From an uncultured Prevotellaceae bacterium (GTDB taxonomy: Bacteria > Bacteroidota > Bacteroidia > Bacteroidales > Bacteroidaceae): a stretch of 34,922 bases of DNA. Below the pieces are notes generated by a model that did no database searches, was not told where the DNA came from, and saw only the letters and a program-made list of their open reading frames with translations. The stretch is from positions 1 through 34,922 of the forward strand of contig ONDJ01000023.1 in NCBI GenBank assembly GCA_900316575.1, written 5' to 3'. Each line of letters begins with the position of its first letter. The first letter of the stretch is position 1. Shown here in pieces: positions 18,261 to 32,404 of the stretch. The position numbers and the translations under genes are program-made.

Positions 18261-18298
18261 TAAAAGAAAAGAAAATGCCCCCGAAGAAGGTCGAGGGC
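18261..18298 (-). terminator. tracrRNA terminator hairpin
   Basis: On the minus strand GCCCTCGA pairs with TTCGGGGGC (one GU pair) around CCTTC, followed by ATTTTCTTTTCTTTT. This is the usual 3' hairpin and U-rich end of a tracrRNA. Confidence 0.85.
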
Positions 18299-18354
18299 TA
18301 CCTAAATGTTTTCACAACGGAATAATCCTTATTGTGAATTGCTACAAAATTAGC
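18262..18354 (-). ncRNA. tracrRNA of the type II-C CRISPR system
   Basis: The anti-repeat (18330-18354 read leftwards, CTAATTTTGTAGCAATTCAC then AAT) pairs with the first 23 nt of the crRNA repeat: one G-U, 11 pairs (GCAATTCACAA), a one-base bulge, 6 pairs (TTTGTA), another bulge and 4 pairs (CTAA). It is followed by AAGGATTATTCC, a likely nexus hairpin, a linker containing GTTGTGAAAAC, and the terminator hairpin at 18277-18298. The RNA would be about 93 nt. It guides RNase III processing of pre-crRNA and loads Cas9. It is divergent from cas9 and starts some 90 bp upstream of the cas9 ATG. GTTGTGAA in the linker copies the first 8 nt of the repeat and could pair with the anti-repeat itself. 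The match to the repeat stops just before the promoter box inside the repeat. Confidence 0.88.
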
Positions 18355-18358
18355 ACTG

Positions 18359-18389
18359 CAAAAGTGGCAAAACATTTTGACTGCAGCAA
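18359..18389 (-). promoter_or_regulatory. Probable tracrRNA promoter
   Basis: On the minus strand TTG (18387-18389), a 20-base gap and CACTTTTG (18359-18366), one base off TAnnTTTG. The predicted start (about 18353) coincides with the 5' edge of the anti-repeat, which supports it. Confidence 0.5.
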
Positions 18390-18408: not shown

Positions 18409-18416
18409 TACATTTG
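18409..18416 (+). promoter_or_regulatory. -7 box of the cas operon
   Basis: TACATTTG matches TAnnTTTG, 30 bp before the cas9 ATG at 18446. No TTG stands at the expected -33 distance, so the promoter may be weak. Confidence 0.5.
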
Positions 18417-18445: not shown

Positions 18446-21400
18446 ATGAAGAATATTTTAGGACTTGATCTCGGGCCCAACAGCATTGGCTGGGCTGTTG
18501 TACAAGTAGAGAAAGAAAGTACCGAAGAAACGCTTTTTGCTAACGGCAAAATACTGATGGCAGGTAGTCGCATCATTCCGATGTCACAAGATACCTTGAA
18601 CAACTACGAAAAGGGTGCTTCAACTTCGCAAACAGATAAGCGTACTGGATATCGCCAAGTGCGCCGCCAGTACGACCGCTTCCATCAACGTCGCGAACGG
18701 CTCAACCGCGTTTTGCTCACGTTGGATTACCTCCCCGAGCACTATGCTGAGCAACTCGACCGTTATGGCAAACTTCCCAAAGACGGCGAACCTAAATTGG
18801 CTTGGCGACAAACAACAGATGGAAAGAGCGAATTTATCTTCCGAGAGGCTTTCCTTGAGATGGTGGCGGAGCTTCGGAAAGTGCATCCCGATTTAAAACG
18901 TATTCCCTACGACTGGACACTCTATTATCTACGCACCAAAGCACTTAGCAAGAAACTTCAGCCCGAAGAATTATCCTGGGTGCTCCACAGCTTCAACCAG
19001 AAGCGTGGTTACAATGCAGTGCGCGGCAAGGACGATGACGAAACAAGCAACCCCGACAAATTACAAGAATATCATTGTTCACGGCTCATCAATATCGAAG
19101 ACACAGGCGAAAAACTACGCGGGAACACCAACTACAAACTTACCTTTGAAGGAGGTACAGTGTTTGAAGTACCTTTGCGTCGTCTTACTATCTCAATCGG
19201 CGAAGAAATTGAATACATCGTTACCACAAAGCTTGACGAAGACGGACAGCCAAAGTTGAACAAACAAGGAAAACCTGATATTTCCTATAGAATACCAAAT
19301 GCCGATGACGCTTGGACGCTCAACAAACTGCGAGCTGAATTTACCATCGACCAAAGCCATTCTACCGTTGGTCAATATATTTTCAACGCCATCCTGCGCA
19401 ACCCTCAGCAGAAGATACGCGGCGAGTTGGTACGCACGGTTGATAGACGTTTCTATCGCGATGAGCTACGTCGTATCCTCGAAGTGCAGATACCACTACA
19501 TCCAGCTTTGCAAGATAGAGAAAAACTTGAAGAATGCCTACTTGCTCTTTATCCAAGCAACGAGGCCCATCGAAATTCCATGCAGGGACGCGACTTCAAG
19601 GCATTGCTCATGGACGATGTCATTCTCTACCAGCGTCCGCTGAAGAGCAAGAAGTCGCTTATCGGCGAATGTAAGTATGAAACACATACCTATATAAATA
19701 AGGAAGGCAAACGCGAGCCCATAGGCTTGAAATGCGCTTCACGTTCCAATCCCTTGTTCCAAGAATATCGGCTCTGGCAATTCCTTGAAAACCTGCGCAT
19801 ACTCAAACGCAAGACACTCGACGGCAACCACTACCGCACAGATGTTGACGTAACAACGCTGTTTTTACGCACAAACGAAAGCTACACCAGCTTGTTCGAC
19901 TATCTTCGCTCTCGTGCAGAGATAGACCAAAAGACATTGCTCAAGTTCTTTAAGCTGAAGGAAGAAGACTATCGGTGGAACTACGTTGAAGAACGCAAGT
20001 ATCCCACTTCAGAGACGCGCGCCGAAATGCTCAAACGATTGAAAAAAGCAGGTGTGCCAACCGAATTCCTCACCCACGAGCTCGAAATGGCACTTTGGGA
20101 AATACTCTATAGCGTAAGTGGGCAAAGCGAATTAGAAAAAGCCTTGCGGAAATTTGCCGAGAAAAACAACCTTGACCAAGAGACCTTCTATCAGTGTTTT
20201 CGAACCATCAAACCCTACTCTGCCGACTATTGTGCTTTCTCCACAAAAGCCCTGCGTCGTTTACTTCCCCTCATGCGACGAGGTCATTATTGGAACTACA
20301 ATGCTATAGACCCGCAGACGCAACAACGCATAGAGAGACTTATCAACGGTGAAGAGGACACTACCATCAGCAACCGCGTCCGCGAAAAAGCCGAAACATT
20401 GCGAACCGAAACCGACTACCAAGGATTGCCAATTTGGCTGGCAAGCTACGTAGTTTATGGTCGCCATAGCGAAGCCTCAGAGATTAAAAAGTGGGCTTCG
20501 CCTGAAGAAATGGACCGAGACATTCGCTGTTTCCGCCAGCACTCCTTGCGCAACCCTATTGTGGAGCAAGTTTGCCTTGAAGCCCTGCGCACCGTTCGCG
20601 ACATTTGGAAAGAAATCGGAAGCATCGACGAAATCCACGTAGAGTTGGGACGCGAAATGCGTGCCACTGCCAAGGAGCGCGAGTCGCGCCACAACCGACA
20701 GTTGGAAAACGAACAGACCAACCTACGCATCAAAGCCCTCCTGCAAGAGTTTATGAATCCTGAGTTCGGCATAGAGGACGTACGCCCCTACTCGCCCAAT
20801 CAGCAAGAGCTCTTGCGCATATACGAAGACACTGTCTTGTCGCAAGAAGCAGGTCGCATAGACGAGCCCATCCGCGAAATCATACGAAAATTCTCACAGA
20901 CCGATGCCGCTAAGCGACCCACCACAGCCGAGGTGCTTCGCTACAAACTTTGGCTTGAGCAGAAATATCGCTCTCCCTACACTGGCGAACCAATCTCTCT
21001 CAGCAAACTCTTCACCTCAGCCTATCAGATAGAACACGTCATTCCACAGTCAGTCTATTACGACAATTCGTATAGCAACAAAGTCATTTGCGAAGCCGAA
21101 GTAAACCTCCTCAAGGGCAATATGCTCGGAATGCCCTTCATTATGCAACATGCAGGCGAAAAGGTGCAATGCTCCGTGGGCAACATTGTCACAATCTCTA
21201 CGCCCGAAGCCTATCGCGCCTTTGTAGAAGAACACTATAAAGGAAAGAAGCAAAAGATATTGCTCAGTGAAGAAATCCCTACAAACTTCACAGCAAGGCA
21301 GATGAACGACACACGCTACATTTCGCGCTTCATCATCGGCGAACTCTCCAAACTGGTACGCGAGCATAACCCCGATGGAACCCTGGAACAAGAGGCAGTG

Positions 21401-22936
21401 TCAAAAAATATCCTCATACTCAATGGCGCAGTGACCGACAAACTAAAGAAAGACTGGGGACTTGTAGATGTTTGGAACGGCATCATTGCTCCACGTTTCC
21501 GGCGGCTCAATGCGATGGAAGGCAGTCAGCGTTTTGGCCACGAAGCCATGAAAGATGGCAAGCGATACTTCCAAATAGAAATGCCGCTTGAACTCCAACG
21601 CGGATTCCAGCGCAAGCGCATTGACCATCGCCACCATGCCATGGATGCCATAGCCATAGCCTGTGCCACACGCACCGTCGTGAACTATCTCAACAACGAC
21701 CATTCCCACGAAGGAGCAGGACGCGAAGACATCAAACGCGCCGTAAGCAGTAAACGCAGTGGGCAGTGGCTTGTTAACAAACCGTGGAACACCTTCACAC
21801 AAGAGGCACGAAAGCAGCTTCAACAAATCGTTGTCAGCTTCAAACAAAACCTCCGCGTCATCAATAAGACCAGCAATCGCTACGTACGCTACAACCCTCA
21901 GACCAGAAAGAAAGTAATCTTCGTGCAACAAAAGGGCGACAGCTGGGCCATTCGCAAACCACTCCACAAAGAGAGCGTCTTTGGCCGCGTCAATCTGCGC
22001 ACCCAGAAAGCCGTTAACTTCAAAACAGCTTATGCCAACATTGAGCGCATCGTTGATAAGCGCTTCAAACATGCCGTGCTCGCTGCCATAAAACGCTACG
22101 GCGGAAAATGCACCGACAAGCAAGTTCTGAAGTATATGCAAGGAATGCCCCAGTGGAAAGACTTTGACTTCAAGAAAGTGCAGATCTATGTGTTCTCGAA
22201 CGACGATGTAAAGACACAAACAAGCGCCATTCGCAAACGCCTTGACGACAGCTTTGACAAAAAGAAAATTCTGACCATCACCGACACAGGCATTCAGCGC
22301 ATCCTCTTGCGCCATTTGGAGCAAAACGGCAACAATCCCAAAGAAGCTTTCTCGCCCGAAGGCATTGTGCGCCTCAATGAAAGCATGCTTGAGCTAAACG
22401 GCGGTAAACCCCATCTGCCTATCTTTGCTGTTCGCATTTCAGAGCCTTTGGGAAACAAGTTTTCCGTTGGAATGCGTGGCAATCGAAGTAAGAAATTTGT
22501 TGAAGCAGCTAAAGGAACGAACCTTTTCTTTGCTATCTACCAGCAAGAAGATGGCAGACGCCTCTACCGTTCCGTGCCGCTCAACGAAGTCATTGAGCGC
22601 CAAAAGCAAGGACTTTCCTCAGCGCCCGAACACGACGAGAATGGAAATGCATTGCTCTTTGTCCTATCACCAGGCGATTTGGTTTATTTGCCAACCAAAG
22701 AAGAGCGCAATAGCAGAATAGACGTTCAAGCCATTGATAAGACACGCATATATAAGATGGTGTCGTGTTCAAATAATAGAGCTTCGTTCATACAGCATAA
22801 CATCGCAACTGCTATTGTAGATAAGAAAGAATACACAGCTGCTAACAAAATCGAAATCTCTGATGAAGGCATTTCTATCAAGCAATACTGCCTTCCCCTT
22901 GAGGTTGACCGTCTTGGCCGATACCGGCTGAAATAA
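18446..22936 (+). CDS. cas9: CRISPR-associated endonuclease Cas9 (type II-C)
   Basis: This 1,496-residue protein has all Cas9 landmarks in order: RuvC-I (NILGLDLGPNSIGWAVV, Asp8), an arginine-rich bridge helix (RRQYDRFHQRRERLNRVLLT), the recognition lobe, RuvC-II (EIHVELGRE, Glu733), the HNH nickase (IEHVIPQSVYYDNSYSNKV, His864), RuvC-III (RIDHRHHAMDAIAIA, His1063/His1064 and Asp1067) and a long PAM-interacting C-terminus. With crRNA and tracrRNA it cuts both strands of matching DNA. It is at the large end for II-C enzymes, as in other Bacteroidetes. The frame is open upstream to an ATG at 18377, but that lies before the -7 box at 18409 and adds 23 residues absent from the family, so the ATG at 18446 is preferred. 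cas1 and cas2 follow; there is no csn2 or cas4, which defines II-C. Confidence 0.98.
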   Translation: MKNILGLDLGPNSIGWAVVQVEKESTEETLFANGKILMAGSRIIPMSQDTLNNYEKGASTSQTDKRTGYRQVRRQYDRFHQRRERLNRVLLTLDYLPEHYAEQLDRYGKLPKDGEPKLAWRQTTDGKSEFIFREAFLEMVAELRKVHPDLKRIPYDWTLYYLRTKALSKKLQPEELSWVLHSFNQKRGYNAVRGKDDDETSNPDKLQEYHCSRLINIEDTGEKLRGNTNYKLTFEGGTVFEVPLRRLTISIGEEIEYIVTTKLDEDGQPKLNKQGKPDISYRIPNADDAWTLNKLRAEFTIDQSHSTVGQYIFNAILRNPQQKIRGELVRTVDRRFYRDELRRILEVQIPLHPALQDREKLEECLLALYPSNEAHRNSMQGRDFKALLMDDVILYQRPLKSKKSLIGECKYETHTYINKEGKREPIGLKCASRSNPLFQEYRLWQFLENLRILKRKTLDGNHYRTDVDVTTLFLRTNESYTSLFDYLRSRAEIDQKTLLKFFKLKEEDYRWNYVEERKYPTSETRAEMLKRLKKAGVPTEFLTHELEMALWEILYSVSGQSELEKALRKFAEKNNLDQETFYQCFRTIKPYSADYCAFSTKALRRLLPLMRRGHYWNYNAIDPQTQQRIERLINGEEDTTISNRVREKAETLRTETDYQGLPIWLASYVVYGRHSEASEIKKWASPEEMDRDIRCFRQHSLRNPIVEQVCLEALRTVRDIWKEIGSIDEIHVELGREMRATAKERESRHNRQLENEQTNLRIKALLQEFMNPEFGIEDVRPYSPNQQELLRIYEDTVLSQEAGRIDEPIREIIRKFSQTDAAKRPTTAEVLRYKLWLEQKYRSPYTGEPISLSKLFTSAYQIEHVIPQSVYYDNSYSNKVICEAEVNLLKGNMLGMPFIMQHAGEKVQCSVGNIVTISTPEAYRAFVEEHYKGKKQKILLSEEIPTNFTARQMNDTRYISRFIIGELSKLVREHNPDGTLEQEAVSKNILILNGAVTDKLKKDWGLVDVWNGIIAPRFRRLNAMEGSQRFGHEAMKDGKRYFQIEMPLELQRGFQRKRIDHRHHAMDAIAIACATRTVVNYLNNDHSHEGAGREDIKRAVSSKRSGQWLVNKPWNTFTQEARKQLQQIVVSFKQNLRVINKTSNRYVRYNPQTRKKVIFVQQKGDSWAIRKPLHKESVFGRVNLRTQKAVNFKTAYANIERIVDKRFKHAVLAAIKRYGGKCTDKQVLKYMQGMPQWKDFDFKKVQIYVFSNDDVKTQTSAIRKRLDDSFDKKKILTITDTGIQRILLRHLEQNGNNPKEAFSPEGIVRLNESMLELNGGKPHLPIFAVRISEPLGNKFSVGMRGNRSKKFVEAAKGTNLFFAIYQQEDGRRLYRSVPLNEVIERQKQGLSSAPEHDENGNALLFVLSPGDLVYLPTKEERNSRIDVQAIDKTRIYKMVSCSNNRASFIQHNIATAIVDKKEYTAANKIEISDEGISIKQYCLPLEVDRLGRYRLK

Positions 22937-22951
22937 ACCAAATGTTCCACT

Positions 22952-22986
22952 GCGCAGAGAGCTACGTGCTTTTCTGCGCTTTTTTA
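22952..22986 (+). terminator. Terminator-like hairpin between cas9 and cas1
   Basis: GCGCAGA pairs with TCTGCGC with an inner AGC/GCT stem, followed directly by six T residues. It would reduce read-through from cas9 into cas1 and cas2. Confidence 0.75.
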
Positions 22987-23001
22987 TAGCCTTTTACTAC
23001 C

Positions 23002-23937
23002 ATGATAAAACGCACTCTCTATTTTGGTACACCTGCCTATCTCTCTCTGCGCAACAATCAGCTCGTTTGGCAAAAACCCGAGACCAAAGGAGAAAAAAAC
23101 TTTTCCGAGGGAGAAAAAGCTGATTCAGTCCGAACAGTTCCGATTGAAGATATCGGCGTAGTGGTATTAGACAACAAGCAACTCACCATTACGCAAGGAC
23201 TACTTGAAGCACTCGTTGAAAACAACTGCGCAGTCGTTACGTGCAACTCCCGATGTATGCCCGTAGGACTCTTGCTTCCCCTTGACGGCAACTACACACA
23301 GCGCGAACGCTTCACCCACCAAATTGAAGCATCCCTACCCCTTCGCAAACAACTTTGGCAACAAACCGTGCGCCAAAAAATCTTAAACCAAGAGGCCATA
23401 CTGCGAAAAAACACCTCGGTTGAAACACGCTGTATGCGACGTTGGGCAGAAGATGTGCGAAGCGGCGATCCCGACAACGTAGAAGCACGCGCGGCAGCCT
23501 ACTACTGGAAGAACTTGTTTTTCCCCCAAATCGACAGTTTCGTTCGAGGACGCGAAGAAGCCCCACCAAACAATCTGCTCAACTACGGCTATGCCATACT
23601 TCGCGCCGTTGTGGCTCGAGCTTTGGTTTCAAGCGGTTTGTTGCCAACACTGGGCATTCACCACCATAATCGCTACAACGCCTACTGCCTGGCCGACGAC
23701 ATCATGGAACCTTATCGGCCATACGTTGATGAACTTGTACTCAAGCTTCTATGCACCGAACCATGTGAAGAACTCACGCGCGAACTGAAAGCACGTTTGC
23801 TCCAAATTCCAGTGATCGATGTCGTCATTGGCGGACAGCGAAGTCCGCTCATGGTGGCAGCCACAACTACGACAGCCTCACTCGCTAAATGCTTTGCTGG
23901 CGAAATGCGCAAAATCACTTATCCCGAAATACAATAG
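23002..23937 (+). CDS. cas1: CRISPR-associated integrase Cas1 (type II)
   Basis: This 311-residue protein is a type II Cas1. The N-terminal beta domain (about 1-95) is followed by the catalytic alpha domain with the metal ligand Glu161 in NVEARAAAYYW, His220 in LGIHHHNRYNAYCLADDIME and the acidic LADDIMEP stretch (230-237). With Cas2 it integrates new spacers at the array end. It is 65 bp after cas9 across a terminator-like hairpin (22952-22986) and 12 bp before cas2. No promoter of its own is visible in the gap, so adaptation genes probably depend on read-through from the cas9 promoter. Length and motifs are complete. Confidence 0.97.
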   Translation: MIKRTLYFGTPAYLSLRNNQLVWQKPETKGEKNFSEGEKADSVRTVPIEDIGVVVLDNKQLTITQGLLEALVENNCAVVTCNSRCMPVGLLLPLDGNYTQRERFTHQIEASLPLRKQLWQQTVRQKILNQEAILRKNTSVETRCMRRWAEDVRSGDPDNVEARAAAYYWKNLFFPQIDSFVRGREEAPPNNLLNYGYAILRAVVARALVSSGLLPTLGIHHHNRYNAYCLADDIMEPYRPYVDELVLKLLCTEPCEELTRELKARLLQIPVIDVVIGGQRSPLMVAATTTTASLAKCFAGEMRKITYPEIQ

Positions 23938-23949
23938 GCAGGCTTTTTT

Positions 23950-24282
23950 ATGGAACGTTTTAGCGAATATAGAATTATGTGGGTACTTATATTCTTTGAT
24001 TTGCCTACCACGACCAAAAAGGAGCGTAAAGCAGCCGCTCGCTTTCGCAAAAACATCATGGGCGATGGTTTCACAATGTTCCAGTTCTCCATCTACGTGC
24101 GCCACTGTGCCAGCAGCGAAAACGCAGCCGTCCACGTACGCCGTGTCAAAGCCTTTATGCCCGAATATGGTAAAATAGGTATTCTAACCATTACCGACAA
24201 ACAATTCGCCAGCATCCAACTCTTCTATGGCCAAAAATCTGTAGCCCCAAAAGCCGCCGGCCAACAGTTAGAACTATTCTGA
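23950..24282 (+). CDS. cas2: CRISPR-associated protein Cas2 (type II)
   Basis: This 110-residue protein has the Cas2 ferredoxin-like fold: first strand RIMWVLIFFDLPTTTKKERK with Asp17, FQFSIYVRHCAS and GKIGILTITDKQF. It bridges two Cas1 dimers in the spacer-integration complex. The ATG is 12 bp after the cas1 stop, so the two are translated from one message. The C-terminal end (GQQLELF) is like that of other type II Cas2 proteins. It is the last cas gene; the array starts 228 bp downstream. Confidence 0.95.
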   Translation: MERFSEYRIMWVLIFFDLPTTTKKERKAAARFRKNIMGDGFTMFQFSIYVRHCASSENAAVHVRRVKAFMPEYGKIGILTITDKQFASIQLFYGQKSVAPKAAGQQLELF

Positions 24283-24335
24283 GGTACGCCCCTTTCCGCA
24301 TTGTCCAGAGAGAGCCCCGCATCCCATAACGCATC

Positions 24336-24366
24336 AATTGGGAGCGCGGGCGTCCTCGTCCGCAAA
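24336..24366. repeat. Dispersed GC-rich repeat, half copy next to cas2
   Basis: ATTGGGAGCGCGGGCGTCCT then CGTCCGCAAAG matches the left half of the element at 10137-10226 and the copy at 9489. It ends abruptly before the adjacent palindrome. Confidence 0.6.
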
Positions 24367-24380
24367 GAGTAACCACTATA

Positions 24381-24434
24381 AGTCAAATTTGACTAAGACA
24401 GACGGACTGAAACTGAGTTCAATCCGTCTGTCTT
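24381..24434. other. Adjacent palindrome and strong hairpin
   Basis: AGTCAAATTTGACT is a perfect 14-bp palindrome. It is followed at once by AAGACAGACGGA, a 16-base loop with its own TGAA/TTCA pairing, and TCCGTCTGTCTT, a perfect 12-bp stem. Neither side ends in a T-run, so it is not a classic terminator. Confidence 0.65.
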
Positions 24435-24556
24435 GGTTAGAAACAACCTTGATTTTTCTTTTCTAAGTAGCCTCTTTACTCATTGATTAACAAATCTTTG
24501 TAAATAATGAGCTGTTTCTAAGGGTCAAAGATACTAATTTGTAAGCAATTCACAAC

Positions 24557-24574
24557 TATTAAGCAATTCACAAC
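24557..24574. repeat. 18-bp duplication in the cas2-side spacer
   Basis: AAGCAATTCACAACTATT is present twice in a row: the last 14 bases of the first repeat plus the first 4 of the spacer. A normal 30-bp spacer (24575-24604) follows. It looks like slippage or a faulty integration event. Confidence 0.85.
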
Positions 24575-26740
24575 TATTAAAGAAAATTAAATGGATTCCA
24601 TTTAGCTGTTTCTAAGGGTCAAAGATACTAATTTGTAAGCAATTCACAACACAACGACTTCGCCAATTACGCCCTCTGCAGCTGTTTCTAAGGGTCAAAG
24701 ATACTAATTTGTAAGCAATTCACAACTATTAAATGAACCTTGATTTAGGTTCATTTGCTGTTTCTAAGGGTCAAAGATACTAATTTGTAAGCAATTCACA
24801 ACTACCACCACGCGCGCCCGAAACGCCAAACCGCTGTTTCTAAGGGTCAAAGATACTAATTTGTAAGCAATTCACAACTACACCCTTGCAGATGCTCTTT
24901 CGTTTCGGCTGTTTCTAAGGGTCAAAGATACTAATTTGTAAGCAATTCACAACTTTTGCCATTATATTCAATAAATAGCTTGGCTGTTTCTAAGGGTCAA
25001 AGATACTAATTTGTAAGCAATTCACAACTACGAAAAGAAACAAGCGCGTGAAATTCTCGCTGTTTCTAAGGGTCAAAGATACTAATTTGTAAGCAATTCA
25101 CAACATATGCGCAGGATATGCGTTTAACAGCGGGGCTGTTTCTAAGGGTCAAAGATACTAATTTGTAAGCAATTCACAACTATCTTCCTACGTATTACTC
25201 GTTCGTGACCGCTGTTTCTAAGGGTCAAAGATACTAATTTGTAAGCAATTCACAACATCACAGACGTGCTAACAGCGTTTGTAAAAGCTGTTTCTAAGGG
25301 TCAAAGATACTAATTTGTAAGCAATTCACAACAAAATTGTTCTTCACTATATTCATGAGGTTGCTGTTTCTAAGGGTCAAAGATACTAATTTGTAAGCAA
25401 TTCACAACCAGAGGGCAGATCTACAGTAATGCGAAGAGCTGTTTCTAAGGGTCAAAGATACTAATTTGTAAGCAATTCACAACCTTCACTGCGAAGTTCA
25501 GCTTCAAAGGCGGCTGTTTCTAAGGGTCAAAGATACTAATTTGTAAGCAATTCACAACTAACTATGTAAATCAGAATGATGATAGGGAGCTGTTTCTAAG
25601 GGTCAAAGATACTAATTTGTAAGCAATTCACAACACAAACATGGAAAATAATTGGCTAAATTCGCTGTTTCTAAGGGTCAAAGATACTAATTTGTAAGCA
25701 ATTCACAACGACGGCTCTTTGCATTCGCCGCCGTTAAGTGCTGTTTCTAAGGGTCAAAGATACTAATTTGTAAGCAATTCACAACGCAAGCAGCACTCGC
25801 AAAGGCTCAAGCATGCTGTTTCTAAGGGTCAAAGATACTAATTTGTAAGCAATTCACAACTAAGTCTTTGTTTTTGCCCAACGCTCAAAGGCTGTTTCTA
25901 AGGGTCAAAGATACTAATTTGTAAGCAATTCACAACCACGGCTTATGCCTAATTTCGCGGCAATAGGCTGTTTCTAAGGGTCAAAGATACTAATTTGTAA
26001 GCAATTCACAACAGACCCATGCTCGTCACCGTACTCGGTATGCTGTTTCTAAGGGTCAAAGATACTAATTTGTAAGCAATTCACAACATTGCTTGAAATA
26101 CAACGAGAGCGCGAAATGCTGTTTCTAAGGGTCAAAGATACTAATTTGTAAGCAATTCACAACAATCAACGCGAAGCCATGAAGACGCAGTTGCTGTTTC
26201 TAAGGGTCAAAGATACTAATTTGTAAGCAATTCACAACTCTTTAGTAGTATAGGAATTAGGGTATTCGGCTGTTTCTAAGGGTCAAAGATACTAATTTGT
26301 AAGCAATTCACAACTCTTGAAGCAAGCGAAGCTCAACGCGGCAAGCTGTTTCTAAGGGTCAAAGATACTAATTTGTAAGCAATTCACAACCTTTGCCACG
26401 TCTATTATAGGCATGACGCGGCTGTTTCTAAGGGTCAAAGATACTAATTTGTAAGCAATTCACAACTACATTAAATTTTGTCACTTTTCAAGGTTAGCTG
26501 TTTCTAAGGGTCAAAGATACTAATTTGTAAGCAATTCACAACCTATTGGCCGCTAATGCCGTCAACCAATGAGCTGTTTCTAAGGGTCAAAGATACTAAT
26601 TTGTAAGCAATTCACAACCAAAGAATGGTTATGATCAAACAACTATTCGCTGTTTCTAAGGGTCAAAGATACTAATTTGTAAGCAATTCACAACTTGCAT
26701 TTTCAGGCGTGTGTTTATAGACTCCGCTGTTTCTAAGGGT

Positions 26741-26770
26741 CAAAGATACTAATTTGTAAGCAATTCACAA
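26741..26770 (-). promoter_or_regulatory. Repeat-embedded promoter (first of 30 in transcription order)
   Basis: In the repeat at 26726-26771, read on the minus strand, TTG (26768-26770), 19 bases and TATCTTTG (26741-26748) fit the Bacteroidetes promoter. The start would fall about 10 nt before the spacer. The other 29 repeats carry the same motif at the same place. Confidence 0.65.
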
Positions 26771-26803
26771 CCCTTTAAGCCAAAATACTCCACATATTAC
26801 TCC

Positions 26804-28972
26804 CTAAGTTTTCCGACTTTCGAGAACCAGACGCAAGTAACCCCAATCTAAATCGCCAGGTATTCGAGCCTTCACATCGGCAAGCGGAGCGTCATCGCCC
26901 AAAAGATCAAAAGCGGCATTTATGATTTGTAGCAGTTGAGGCGGAAGAATTTCTTTGATCTTGATATCGCCAGAAGCCACAAACCGCTGCAAGTGATTAC
27001 AAATCGTGCCAACCGTAAAACCACGACTCTTAGCGATCTCGCCTATTGAAAGTCCATTTACAAACAAATCATAGGAAATATCCCACGTCTTGGGCTTTGG
27101 TTCCTTTGCCTTTGTTGCCTTTTTAGCACGCTTTCGGCTAAGGCGTCCTTCATCTAAAGCATCGAGCATAGCCGTCTGTTTTGCCTTGAGGAATGTCGTG
27201 GGGTCAAAACCTTTTTCAGCAATAGTGTTGAGCAAATAGAGACGCGCCAGCCATTGTTGACGCAAATCTGGCAAACGACTTTGCAGAAGTTTCATAGCCT
27301 GTTTGTTTTCGCTTTTTACATCCTTGGTCAAGCGTATTGGATCTGAGAGAATTTCTTCTAATTTATTCTTAAAATAATCAGCAGCAGCCACCACACGCTT
27401 TCGAAAATCCTCCTGCTGAATCATTGATATGGCCAACTCTGCAATTTTTTTCTCCCATTTACGAGCCACTTCCACCACTTCCAAGCGAAGCCGCTCCGTC
27501 GCCTGCAGGTGTCGCTGGTACAACGGTGCAAATTTGCGAGAGAGGTATTCAGAAAACACACGCACCACACCCTCCTCTGCTTGCCATATCGGCTGCATAT
27601 CAAAAAGTTCTGTGAGCAAATGACGCTCGTATTCCTGTTTCAAGATAGGAAGCTGTGTCATCATTGCTGCCGACGGATCTTGCTGCCCAAGCATATAACG
27701 ATCCACACGCCCGTCGTTAATGATAGCGCTCAGAGGTATCGGCTCTGAAAGCACCAATCCATCGAGCGAACGCAAACGGCTCAAAGCCACATAGGCCTGC
27801 CCAGGAGCAAATGAATGGCCAGCGTCAACAATAGCACGGTCAAATGTAAGTCCCTGACTCTTGTGAATAGTAACAGACCACGCCAAGCGCAACGGATATT
27901 GGCTGAACGTACCTAGCACCTCCGACTCAATCTCACGCGTCTTCTCATTCAAAGCATAGCGCGTATTCTCCCATTGCACAACATCTACCTCAATCAACGA
28001 GTCACTTCCTTGAGGAGTCACCACAATACGATCTTCAGAAAGCTCTGTTACACACCCAATCAAACCATTATAGTACGCACCATTATTCGTATCGTTCTTG
28101 ATAAACATCACCTGCGCACCCTCCTTCAAACAAAGCGTCGCTTCTGTAGGAAAAGAAGTTTCAGGAAAAGTGCCCTCCACTTTCGCCTTAAACTCAACCA
28201 TACGCGACGGAAGACGCATCAACTCCTGTTCATTGAAGCGAGAAGCCATATGATTGTGCGTAGTCAAACGAATATAGCCTTCTCCAGGCTTAGGGATAAA
28301 ACCTGGCTTATACCGCGAATTTAACAGAGATAAATCAGATTCCGAAAGATGTCCCGTGCGAACATGATTTAGCAATTCTACAAACTGCAACTCTTGTTGA
28401 CGATAAACATGCGAAAGCTCTACCGTCACATATTGAATCTGCCGCAAAGCATTCGAACTAAAAAAGTATGGCGTTTCGTAATAACACTTGATAAGCCCCT
28501 CCTCTTCAGGAGTAACAACAGGCGTAAGCTGAGCTAAGTCACCTATCATCAGCAACTGCACACCGCCAAAAGGCCTATGATGGTCGCGATAACGACGCAA
28601 CACATAGTCAATCGCATCAAGCAAATCACAGCGCACCATCGAAATCTCATCAATAATCAGCAAATCAAGCGAAGCAATAATCTTGCGTTTATCCCTACCA
28701 AAGTCATATTTACTCTTCAATTCAGCCCCAGGAACAAACGGCGAAAGCGAAAGTTGAAAAAAAGAATGTATCGTCACACCCCCAGCATTTATCGCAGCAA
28801 CGCCCGTCGGCGCAACAACAACTACACGTTTCCGAGTCCTCGCCACCAAGTCGTGCAAAAATGTAGTTTTACCCGTACCCGCCTTGCCTGTTAGAAAAAC
28901 ACTAATACCCGTATATTCCACAAACTCCCACGCTACGCGGCGCTCCTTGTTGATATCTACAACTTTTTCCAT
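26804..28972 (-). CDS. Pif1/RecD-like helicase with C-terminal helix-turn-helix
   Basis: This 722-residue protein has a superfamily 1B helicase core: Walker A TGKAGTGKTTF (residues 28-38), VAPTGVAAINAGG, Walker B LLIIDEIS (about 104-111), GDLAQLTPVV, and late motifs SVTIHKSQGLTFDRAIVDAG and YVALSRLRSLDGLVLS. The last 100 residues (WDISYDLFVNGLSIGEIAKS, TVGTICNHLQRF) look like the helix-turn-helix domain also found at RecQ C-termini. Such enzymes unwind DNA 5' to 3' in genome maintenance, including G-quadruplex and fork processing. The ATG at 28972 was chosen over an upstream TTG for its normal N-terminus. It is read towards the CRISPR array and its stop lies 32 bp from the first repeat, with no terminator between, so read-through could feed the array. 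There is no sign that it is a Cas protein. Confidence 0.9.
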   Translation of the reverse strand: MEKVVDINKERRVAWEFVEYTGISVFLTGKAGTGKTTFLHDLVARTRKRVVVVAPTGVAAINAGGVTIHSFFQLSLSPFVPGAELKSKYDFGRDKRKIIASLDLLIIDEISMVRCDLLDAIDYVLRRYRDHHRPFGGVQLLMIGDLAQLTPVVTPEEEGLIKCYYETPYFFSSNALRQIQYVTVELSHVYRQQELQFVELLNHVRTGHLSESDLSLLNSRYKPGFIPKPGEGYIRLTTHNHMASRFNEQELMRLPSRMVEFKAKVEGTFPETSFPTEATLCLKEGAQVMFIKNDTNNGAYYNGLIGCVTELSEDRIVVTPQGSDSLIEVDVVQWENTRYALNEKTREIESEVLGTFSQYPLRLAWSVTIHKSQGLTFDRAIVDAGHSFAPGQAYVALSRLRSLDGLVLSEPIPLSAIINDGRVDRYMLGQQDPSAAMMTQLPILKQEYERHLLTELFDMQPIWQAEEGVVRVFSEYLSRKFAPLYQRHLQATERLRLEVVEVARKWEKKIAELAISMIQQEDFRKRVVAAADYFKNKLEEILSDPIRLTKDVKSENKQAMKLLQSRLPDLRQQWLARLYLLNTIAEKGFDPTTFLKAKQTAMLDALDEGRLSRKRAKKATKAKEPKPKTWDISYDLFVNGLSIGEIAKSRGFTVGTICNHLQRFVASGDIKIKEILPPQLLQIINAAFDLLGDDAPLADVKARIPGDLDWGYLRLVLESRKT

Positions 28973-29293: not shown

Positions 29294-29324
29294 TTTGCAC
29301 GTAAGCAATTTTAGTCTAACTTTG
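29294..29324 (+). promoter_or_regulatory. tRNA-Lys promoter
   Basis: TTTG (29294-29297), 19 bases and TAACTTTG (29317-29324), an exact consensus match about 46 bp before the tRNA. Confidence 0.8.
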
Positions 29325-29622: not shown

Positions 29623-29721
29623 GGAACTCACCCCTGCGCAACTTGCCTATATCTACCAACTCCTCGGCAATGGCATAGCGATGGACAATACTATCTTCTA
29701 TGCCTTTATGTACTGCGCCCG
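29623..29721 (+). repeat. 99-bp direct repeat, copy A
   Basis: GGAACTCACCCCTGCGCAAC onwards is identical to 30976-31074. It begins exactly at the end of the IS palindrome. Confidence 0.9.
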
Positions 29722-29935
29722 TCTGCATATCATTAAGGCGCAAGACGAAGAAGTGGTCATTGTCAGCCACTGGCGCAAAGCATATCCCGTGAAGCGTAAC
29801 GACCTACTCCTTGCTGCACAGACGATGGACTTCATCGACAACTTGCCCACGTATAAATCTTCGTCTAAATACGAAGCCGACCAGTTTAAAGCCTATGAAA
29901 ATAAACGCGACGACAGCTGCTATTTCTTTGGATAG
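29624..29935 (+). pseudogene. 3' part of a broken gene of unknown function
   Basis: The frame reads ELTPAQLAYIYQLLGNGIAM and DNTIFYAFMYCARLHIIKAQ onwards, through an acidic/basic middle (EEVVIVSHWRKAYPVKRND) to a stop at 29935 after DDSCYFFG. It has no start of its own: the sequence begins at the IS palindrome. Its first 33 residues are duplicated in the fusion at 30851-31447, which supplies a possible 5' half. Together they would make a protein of about 145 residues. I do not recognise the family, though short proteins with a SWxELTxxQL start occur in Bacteroidetes. An internal ATG at 29681 could give an 84-residue product, but this is more likely a fragment. Confidence 0.6.
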
Positions 29936-29996: not shown

Positions 29997-30851
29997 ATGA
30001 AAGATATTATCATTTATACCTCAGAACGGCTACGTATATCACCAAAAACAGCAAGTGTAGCAGAATCTATTTCTGCCGCTCTATCCAAGTTGAACGTAGA
30101 ACACCGAGAGTTATCTAATAATCAAAATTATTGGTGTCGGGATTATATGCCTGTAATGATTTTCAGTGATGGCACTTACTCTAAATTCAGATATAATCCA
30201 GATTATTTAGTTGAATGCAAGACGTACCATAAGACTATAGTCAATCAGGATGAAGTTTGTAAGGGTCTGCATCTATTTACTCCAACTAATATGAATATCA
30301 TATTTGATGGAGGAAACTATGTGAGATGTGGCAATAAGGTTATTATGACGGATAAGATTTTCAGCGAAAATCCCCAATGGTCGGCTCTTGAACTTTTGCA
30401 GCATCTAAAAGATTCCTTGTGTGCTGAAGAAATAATACTTTTACCCTGGGACATGAAAGACTTCTGCGGACACTCAGATGGAATGGTTGCACCTCTGGAT
30501 GATAATCGAATACTTTTGAATGGATGTTGGAAAAACAAAGCCAAAAAATTTCATAACAGACTCTTAAAAATCCTTGAAGCTAAATTCGATGTTGTTCAAC
30601 TCGATTTAGACTGTAAAGAAGATAAGGATTCATGGTGCTATCTGAATTTTTTAAGAGTGAGCAATGGTATATTACTTCCATGTCTTTCTGAAAATAAAGA
30701 TAGCGAGAGCGATATTGCAGCTTTGAATTTTTTTAAAAAACTTTTCCCAGATTTGAAGATTATCCCCATTTATGCAAAACCTTTGATAAAAGAAGGCGGT
30801 GCACTGCATTGTGTAACATGGGAATATATTGCAAAAAAGAAGGAGATTTAA
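29997..30851 (+). CDS. Agmatine deiminase / peptidylarginine deiminase family protein
   Basis: This 284-residue protein has the full guanidine-modifying active site: WCRDYMPV (Trp46, Arg48, Asp49), FDGGNYV (Asp104, Gly105, Gly106, Asn107), CGHSDGMV (His159, Asp161) and GGALHCVTWE with the nucleophile Cys272. Agmatine deiminases turn agmatine into N-carbamoylputrescine plus ammonia; PPAD relatives act on peptidyl-arginine. There is no signal peptide and it is shorter than usual (agmatine deiminases are about 340-370 residues), so the substrate is open. No carbamoylputrescine amidase gene is nearby. The gene is clearly AT-richer than its neighbours (30% GC in a 60-base sample at 30541) and lies between IS relics, which suggests transfer. 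Its stop overlaps the next ATG (TAATG), preceded by AAGGAG, an SD-like site unusual for this phylum. Confidence 0.83.
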   Translation: MKDIIIYTSERLRISPKTASVAESISAALSKLNVEHRELSNNQNYWCRDYMPVMIFSDGTYSKFRYNPDYLVECKTYHKTIVNQDEVCKGLHLFTPTNMNIIFDGGNYVRCGNKVIMTDKIFSENPQWSALELLQHLKDSLCAEEIILLPWDMKDFCGHSDGMVAPLDDNRILLNGCWKNKAKKFHNRLLKILEAKFDVVQLDLDCKEDKDSWCYLNFLRVSNGILLPCLSENKDSESDIAALNFFKKLFPDLKIIPIYAKPLIKEGGALHCVTWEYIAKKKEI

Positions 30852-30909
30852 TGAAAAGTAAATTCCAATTTTTAGCACATCGTCCTGCACGTGTCTTTTT
30901 ATACCCATC

Positions 30910-30948
30910 AATGCTTCCGTACTTTCGCAGTATGGAAGCATTTTCTTT
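30910..30948 (+). terminator. Possible terminator after the deiminase gene
   Basis: AATGCTTCC and GGAAGCATT form a 9-bp stem with an inner ACT/AGT, followed by TTCTTTAT. It sits inside the chimeric frame and suggests the deiminase transcript ends here. Confidence 0.55.
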
Positions 30949-30975
30949 ATCTATAAACGTGCCCACGAGTTGGCA

Positions 30976-31074
30976 GGAACTCACCCCTGCGCAACTTGCC
31001 TATATCTACCAACTCCTCGGCAATGGCATAGCGATGGACAATACTATCTTCTATGCCTTTATGTACTGCGCCCG
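30976..31074 (+). repeat. 99-bp direct repeat, copy B
   Basis: Identical to 29623-29721. It ends exactly where the transposase-derived sequence begins. Confidence 0.9.
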
Positions 31075-31450
31075 CAAGACGAAATGGAATGAGCAGCAGC
31101 GGGCAAGGGCTAAAATCCTGTTTCGTATGTTTCCTTGCTTAGAACAAGCCTATAACATCTACCTTGAACTCATTGATATTTTTAACAAAAAGTCCATACC
31201 ATCCGCAGCAAGGTTGAACTTGGCAAGATGGTACAACAAAGTTGAGCTGTTCAACGATGAAGGCTTCAGTAAAGTAACAGAAACCTTCGAGAACCACAAC
31301 GAAACCATAATCAACTACTTTGAGGACAGACTCACAAACGCATCAGCAGAATCGTTCAACGCCAAAATCAAAGCACTCAGAAGTCAGTTCAGAGGCGTCG
31401 GAGATATAAAATTCTTTATGTTTAGATTAGCCACTCTTTATTCCTGATAG

Positions 31451-32366: not shown

Positions 32367-32404
32367 GAGAAAACTAATTAATGTGTGTTTCTTCAAACCA
32401 AAGG

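Follow-up and report, generated by a model that had tools for sequence, protein, structure and literature searches.

A proposed -7 promoter box in the repeats of type II-C CRISPR arrays of Bacteroidales

Here, we propose that the repeats of a type II-C CRISPR array from an uncultured Prevotellaceae bacterium do two jobs, each supplying the crRNA handle and carrying a -7 promoter box, with each spacer transcribed from the repeat that precedes it and no need for a leader promoter. We consider this reading of the sequence likely. It is based on the box itself, its conservation among related repeats, tracrRNA pairing that ends where the box begins, the polarity of the arrays, and a preference of the host genomes for the same box and spacing; from these we infer the start site, transcription itself and processing. 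The array lies in what we call the window, the whole stretch of 34,922 nucleotides that was analysed (contig ONDJ01000023.1, assembly GCA_900316575.1).

Under this proposal, the crRNA handle, which pairs with tracrRNA, would derive from repeat positions 1-23, and positions 24-31 (TATCTTTG) would serve the ordinary Bacteroidales sigma factor as its -7 box. Transcription by RNA polymerase would start about 4 nt past the box, within the last ~11 bases of the repeat, and continue across the entire spacer and on into the following repeat, the first half of which would pair with tracrRNA and then be cut, presumably by RNase III. The newest spacer, beside cas2, would likewise be transcribed from the repeat preceding it. 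In Bacteroidales the box very probably works as a promoter element, and the gut-type bacterium of the window, like most relatives in the survey, could probably read out each spacer separately. We are evenly divided over a fuller reading, in which the extra 10-11 bp of these repeats (46-48 bp versus 36 bp) would hold the start, the repeat would consist of an RNA half (1-23) and a DNA half (24-46, with the sigma-ABfr -7 box and the start), the anti-repeat would end at the seam between them, and the primary crRNA would comprise ~11 nt of repeat followed by the 30-nt spacer in full. Such a layout of repeat promoter would be the third, distinct from those of Campylobacter and Neisseria; it would use the promoter consensus of the host itself and fade outside Bacteroidales.

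The array, its neighbours and the host promoter consensus

The CRISPR array (24511..26771, minus strand; Rfam CRISPR-DR49) holds 29 spacers of 29-31 nt between 30 identical 46-bp repeats, the unit GTTGTGAATTGCTTACAAATTAGTATCTTTGACCCTTAGAAACAGC occurring as 30 exact copies on the minus strand. An earlier note had described the repeat letters and the spacing of the two promoter elements, and both are exact: read on the crRNA strand, all 30 repeats have TTG at positions 2-4 and TATCTTTG at positions 24-31, separated by 19 bases, and in all 30 the latter matches TAnnTTTG, the -7 box of sigma-ABfr in the Bacteroides -33/-7 promoter. Each repeat thus contains a host promoter consensus in the crRNA direction, the mark of a repeat promoter. 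In the first (crRNA-upstream) repeat, for example, the proposed promoter TTG-N19-TATCTTTG spans 26741..26770 (minus), and, counting from -7, the position that the consensus gives the box, the start should fall ~4 nt past the box and ~11 nt ahead of the spacer.

Between spacer 29 and the last repeat on the cas2 side, which it adjoins, stands an 18-bp partial repeat without a -7 box (24557..24574, minus) that the earlier note had overlooked. It consists of the first 14 bases of the full repeat followed by AATA (GTTGTGAATTGCTT + AATA) and resembles the product of an insertion that was aborted or slipped at the growing end. Two spacers near that end hold inverted repeats, which is odd for captured DNA: spacer 27 (24756-24727, minus) contains AAATGAACC...GGTTCATTT, called as terminator-like on the plus strand, and spacer 29 (24604-24575, minus) contains TAAATGGAATCCATTTA. 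A comparison of the array spacers with 50,697 phage records gave zero matches.

The genes cas9 (18446..22936, plus; 1496 aa; TIGR01865, with HNH and RuvC III), type II cas1 (23002..23937, plus; TIGR03639) and cas2 (23950..24282, plus; TIGR01573) are adjacent at 18446-24282, with no other gene between them or ahead of the array. Because this set of cas9, cas1 and cas2 includes neither csn2 nor cas4, the system is type II-C; a marker of that type, a tracrRNA with its anti-repeat close to cas9, is also present. The tracrRNA gene, upstream of cas9, is placed at 18262..18356 (minus, ends inferred) and has an anti-repeat at 18353-18331 (minus), followed by a hairpin, a terminator hairpin and a T-rich stretch. 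Its proposed promoter (18359..18389, minus) reads TTG-N20-CACTTTTG, one base off TAnnTTTG, and a -7 box for cas9 (TACATTTG) is proposed at 18409..18416 (plus), with TTG absent at 17-23 bp. The segment 24283..24510, on the cas2 side, is the presumed leader, at which new spacers would enter, a role assigned from the polarity of the arrays and from acquisition in Riemerella; it has zero exact TAnnTTTG on either strand. A perfect 12-bp inverted repeat at 24395-24433, between cas2 and the array end (AAGACAGACGGA / TCCGTCTGTCTT), could be a two-way terminator separating converging cas and crRNA transcripts.

Box and spacing also belong to the host. Outside the array, the window contains 7 TTG-N19-TAnnTTTG sites, of which 5 lie upstream of a same-strand gene or tRNA: tRNA-Lys (TTTG at 29294), tRNA-Glu (31741, minus), a holin-family gene (32538), and minus-strand genes starting at 32396 and 4324. 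The first three bear out the earlier remark that the repeats share their spacing with these promoters; the remaining two sites are one at the window edge and one antisense within a gene. The whole 2.35-Mb genome has 137 such sites, 30 in the array and 107 elsewhere, the latter against 33 for the pattern read backwards (~3.2 times the control, genome-wide). Its small SRP RNA family and the kinship of the window with named loci place this genome in Bacteroidales. In the 100 long-repeat loci, TAnnTTTG is 3.3 times as dense in intergenic DNA as in genes (1.225 versus 0.369 per kb per strand). Upstream of 598 TAnnTTTG sites, TTG is in excess at gaps of 19 (64) and 20 (81), with ~13 at each other gap; the gap of 19 is the one used by the repeats in 50 of 66, and the commonest nn is TC in host sites and repeats alike. 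TAnnTTTG is also sense-biased in the tandem intergenic DNA of Bacteroidales (119:74). In other classes the bias is slight (16:13), and the repeats there mostly lack the box too. These counts support the view that the repeat box has a spacing that these genomes prefer. In Bacteroides thetaiotaomicron, 81% of primary TSSs are reported to be preceded by the -7/-33 motif, and no CRISPR is annotated (PMC7366714).

Elsewhere in the window, a short peptidyl-arginine-deiminase-like gene (29997-30848, plus) overlaps an ISL3-type transposase fragment (30809-31447, plus), with which a short ORF at 29681-29935 has a stretch of its start in common.

Conservation of the box and the reach of tracrRNA pairing

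However many copies it has, one repeat sequence counts as one observation, and related repeats were therefore surveyed at Cas9 loci taken from the genus of the window and from a sample of the phylum, together with 7 viral contigs and with added named loci, the best 80 of 587 Cas1 relatives, which were picked by similarity and so form a non-random set that favours relatives of the window. Our own script detected 141 arrays: 101 with repeats of 44-48 bp, 38 with repeats of ~36 bp, and 2 of odd length that were dropped, as were loci with no array detected (21 of the 88 loci L069-L156 and 17 of the 87 loci L157-L243). This gave 96 unique long repeats (44-48 bp) and 30 unique short ones (~36 bp). 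By Bacteroidales-type we mean the window's family and the 80 named loci, five of which have titles other than Bacteroidales (three Bacteroidia, one Eubacteriales and one Firmicutes).

An exact TAnnTTTG occurs in 67/96 unique long repeats. Controls on the same 96 gave 0 matches for the reverse complement, 3 for reversed and 2 for complemented repeats, and shuffles of the repeat interior gave a mean of 3.3 with a maximum of 9. Among the Bacteroidales-type long repeats the box is exact in 62/69, or 59/66 without the five differently titled loci (the grouped counts of 9/10 and 55/61 include two repeats twice). Outside Bacteroidales it is found in 2/14 repeats of other Bacteroidia families and 1/10 of other classes (by family, f6 0/6, f4 1/4, f5 1/2, f7 0/1 and f10 0/1), and in short 36-bp repeats in 4/30, with 0/5 in the window's own family. 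Thus, the motif put forward earlier for Bacteroidetes holds for Bacteroidales, and the wider name claims too much. Type I-C arrays have the box in 0/19, a weak control given their GC-rich short repeats. Repeat length is 46-48 bp across the 73 Bacteroidales-type loci and 47 bp in 62 of them.

The survey also turned up repeats of other kinds. One genome of the window's genus (G404) has two Cas9 loci (L145 and L147), with a 36-bp repeat that lacks the box and a 47-bp repeat that contains TACCTTTG, allowing a side-by-side comparison of both repeat types within one host. In three loci of other classes (L117, L119 and L120), 36-bp repeats have TAnnTTTG at position 21 in a different repeat backbone.

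How the box has changed was followed on a Cas1 tree of 72 of the 73 Bacteroidales-type loci (one duplicate dropped), a quick FastTree run without support checks, so that all counts of change are rough. All six fixed bases of the box are matched in 65/72 of these loci, which have repeats of 44-48 bp, and permuted patterns of the same letters are matched in at most 3 of 72. Alignment of the repeats by their best box, which favours the box by construction, gave 1, 2, 1, 1, 2 and 2 changes at the fixed bases T, A, T, T, T and G, 13 and 7 at nn, and 15-29 at each of the nine positions past the box. A plain alignment does not track shifted boxes; in it the fixed bases changed 1, 7, 2, 7, 2 and 8 times, nn 11 and 9 times, the two bases ahead of the box 13 and 17 times, and the six past it 16-32 times. 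The box block stands out in both alignments, and its freer positions are those left free by the published TAnnTTTG. In 16/66 exact cases the box is displaced, lying between -1 and +3 bp from its usual place. Without an exact box are 7/72 loci, including L139 in the window's genus (G396) and L211; these two (TATCCCTC, TATCGAAC) are otherwise typical Bacteroidales repeats and would be useful natural mutants.

Family f6 has TAnnTTTA in 4/6 repeats. We considered the idea that its repeats follow a dialect of the host, with a TTTA-type promoter, and intergenic rates had seemed to fit this (2.08 versus 1.03 per kb), but strand bias does not support it for f6 as a whole (TTTG 21:9, TTTA 33:38 in the f6 loci). 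Genome by genome, G198 gave TTTG 18:6 and TTTA 15:20, the counts for G304 (15:11 and 16:11) decided for neither motif, and in G107 both motifs showed a lean (11:4 and 20:9). The f6 repeat box therefore looks off-consensus, since host strand bias favours TTTG and the repeats are mostly TTTA.

Could the box be maintained by pairing with tracrRNA? An anti-repeat with a conserved tracrRNA body was recognised in 69/100 long-repeat loci and none was recognised in 31; the pairing profile was drawn from 48 of those 69, with exact-box repeats only. Complementarity to the locus's own tracrRNA is at least 0.83 at all positions ahead of the box except one (0.48), eleven bases before it. The first two box bases have 0.79 and 0.56 and the other six 0.17-0.65, and past the box complementarity climbs again to 0.44-0.79. 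We put this last rise down to gapped alignment with free ends, and take the comparison of own with foreign tracrRNA as the fair reading: 0.86 versus 0.69 ahead of the box, and 0.48 versus 0.55 at TTTG. Because own-tracrRNA pairing ends where the box begins, that pairing is unlikely to maintain the box. The earlier note had asked for conservation of TTG-N19-TAnnTTTG to be set against the needs of tracrRNA pairing, and within Bacteroidales the data support a -7 box conserved in II-C repeats beyond those needs.

The TTG fares differently. It is not independent evidence, being part of the tracrRNA-pairing GTTGTG, and with its bases so shared it is weak evidence for a -33 element in the repeat; in half-eroded first repeats (see below) a TTG occurs at 18-21 bp in 4/19. 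The tracrRNA genes themselves have an exact TAnnTTTG of their own in 50/69 loci, 36 of these lying 12-15 bp ahead of the anti-repeat core, and a TTG at 19 or 20 bp from these boxes gave 35 counts.

Array polarity and rival explanations

Of 81 arrays readable at both ends, 42 have the more degenerate repeat at the crRNA-upstream end and 1 on the cas2 side; in 38 the ends are equal, the window array, with both ends intact, being among the last. Because decay sits at the crRNA-upstream end, the arrays grow on the cas2 side, and acquisition at that end has been shown by experiment in Riemerella, in the part of the study available to us (PMC6008519). Since transcription would run towards the growing end, a promoter in a cas2-side leader would read the wrong strand. 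The leader-driven mode usual in type II-A, with a promoter at the acquiring end reading into the array, is thus at odds with the pattern of repeat decay. An upstream leader promoter was also considered and set aside: TAnnTTTG occurs within 100 bp upstream of 64 arrays in 10 cases, near the ~8 (12%) expected by chance, and the window flank has one-off matches only. A scan of the array for E. coli-type promoters gave 3 promoter-like sites, fewer than shuffles.

Decay of the first repeat has a direction of its own. The first unit retains the stretch from the box up to the spacer and has lost its tracrRNA half in 19/58 arrays, the reverse is seen in 1, and at the cas2 end there are such remnants in 0/86; as the search for half-units selects the kept halves by threshold, only the asymmetry of 19 to 1 counts. 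In a first repeat, no spacer depends on the tracrRNA half, whereas the first spacer would depend on the box half. An exact TAnnTTTG is present in 13/19 eroded units; five come from arrays whose own repeat lacks the box, and one (L216) has lost it. In another (L188, Bacteroides faecis MAJ27) the unit reads TAAATTTG, altered at the free positions and unaltered at the fixed ones. Erosion alone does not single out TAnnTTTG, because box-less 36-bp repeats erode in the same direction (8/31 arrays by our reading of the script output, the script's 10/31 less one with an intact head and one that is N-masked).

The main rival to our proposal is a single long pre-crRNA made by read-through from the upstream PIF1-like helicase gene or from an outside promoter and cut by RNase III, with the box irrelevant or a minor start. 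Such read-through is possible in the window, where the helicase gene is the upstream neighbour of the array, points at it on the same strand and ends with a stop codon 32 bp short of repeat 1, and where a simple scan of the minus strand at 24200-26900 gave zero terminator-like sites. We nevertheless hold it to be unlikely: it leaves the conservation of the box outside the tracrRNA duplex unexplained, the 64 upstream flanks have no clear excess of TAnnTTTG (10 versus ~8), and it would leave the newest spacers in the most distal place. Somewhat less probable still is that TATCTTTG is kept because the Cas1-Cas2 integrase, or a host factor that gauges the repeat during spacer insertion, contacts the DNA there, and that it resembles a promoter as a by-product. 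The constant length of 46-48 bp in 73 loci (62 at 47) is ruler-like while other positions vary, as such a contact would have it, but the box is 1-3 bp displaced in 16/66 exact cases, its changeable positions coincide with those of the promoter consensus, and the oldest repeat, presumably past receiving insertions, keeps the box half in 19 arrays versus 1. A protein footprint equal to the host -7 consensus and spacing would, moreover, be a coincidence.

It is very improbable that TATCTTTG merely arose by chance in an AT-rich repeat and was inherited by close relatives. The loci are indeed related by descent, so that repeat counts are not independent, and the Cas1 tree is a quick one without support checks, but on that tree the bases past the box changed 15-32 times and the fixed bases 1-2 or 1-8 times depending on the alignment, and the reverse-strand, reversed and shuffled controls are low.

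Relation to known systems

If the promoter reading of the repeats holds, gut and oral Bacteroidales would express the spacers of most of their long-repeat II-C arrays singly, the newest as strongly as the oldest. For crRNA design and array engineering in these hosts, the 47-bp repeat alone would be needed and the leader would be dispensable. The reading would also make sense of array growth at the end towards which transcription would run, and would give a simple account of first-repeat decay, in which the tracrRNA half is lost and the start box retained.

In Neisseria meningitidis II-C, Zhang et al. (2013) reportedly found a functional promoter in each repeat and identified no leader promoter. 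The Neisseria repeat is 36 bp long and has an E. coli-type box at its end; the window array differs in its sigma-factor consensus. The earlier note saw convergent design in this difference, a claim that goes beyond the data, since Campylobacter jejuni and Neisseria are also II-C and the systems may share the habit by descent. The C. jejuni II-C system has an individual promoter per repeat according to the passages available of Dugar et al. 2013 (PMC3656092). It resembles the window system in being a minimal type II, with a tracrRNA and three cas proteins, and in starting each crRNA from the box of the preceding repeat, as proposed here. In C. jejuni, however, those passages locate the -10 box in the 3' portion of the repeat, with transcription beginning inside the spacer (PMC3656092), whereas in the window array TAnnTTTG is mid-repeat (24-31 of 46) and the predicted start lies in the repeat, ~11 nt before the spacer.

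Closer relatives are described within the order and phylum. The type II-C system of Bacteroides fragilis, from the same order and with the same gene set, is treated in an account whose available part describes leader transcription in general, leaves the II-C leader unassigned and, unlike our description of the window array, includes no repeat promoter (PMC5704556). For Riemerella, the authors report, in the passages available, that no promoter was found in the repeats (PMC5006608). In Flavobacterium columnare, according to the excerpts at hand, a TTG 33 bp upstream of each spacer has been proposed as promoter, and RNA-seq gave eight array reads, directed towards the leader (PMC8092290). The corresponding excerpts for F. 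psychrophilum have 46-bp repeats with the same TTG proposal, an array split by IS256 with both parts transcribed, and TAnnTTTG named for cas9 and not for the repeat (PMC10309648).

The window array is thus like these Flavobacterium II-C arrays in phylum, in a proposed repeat promoter, and in transcription towards the variable end. The passages available name TTG at -33/-35 alone and contain no comparative test that we could find; the present work adds the -7 box. Repeat promoters in this phylum had already been proposed, from the TTG alone (PMC8092290, PMC10309648, as excerpted). In the literature searched, which covers few subscription papers and others in part, we found no description of TAnnTTTG in II-C repeats. 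Repeat promoters as a kind are already known; what appears to be new, judged from the sequence, is a -7 box in the middle of the repeat, a start placed ~11 nt before the spacer, and a seam with the tracrRNA duplex.
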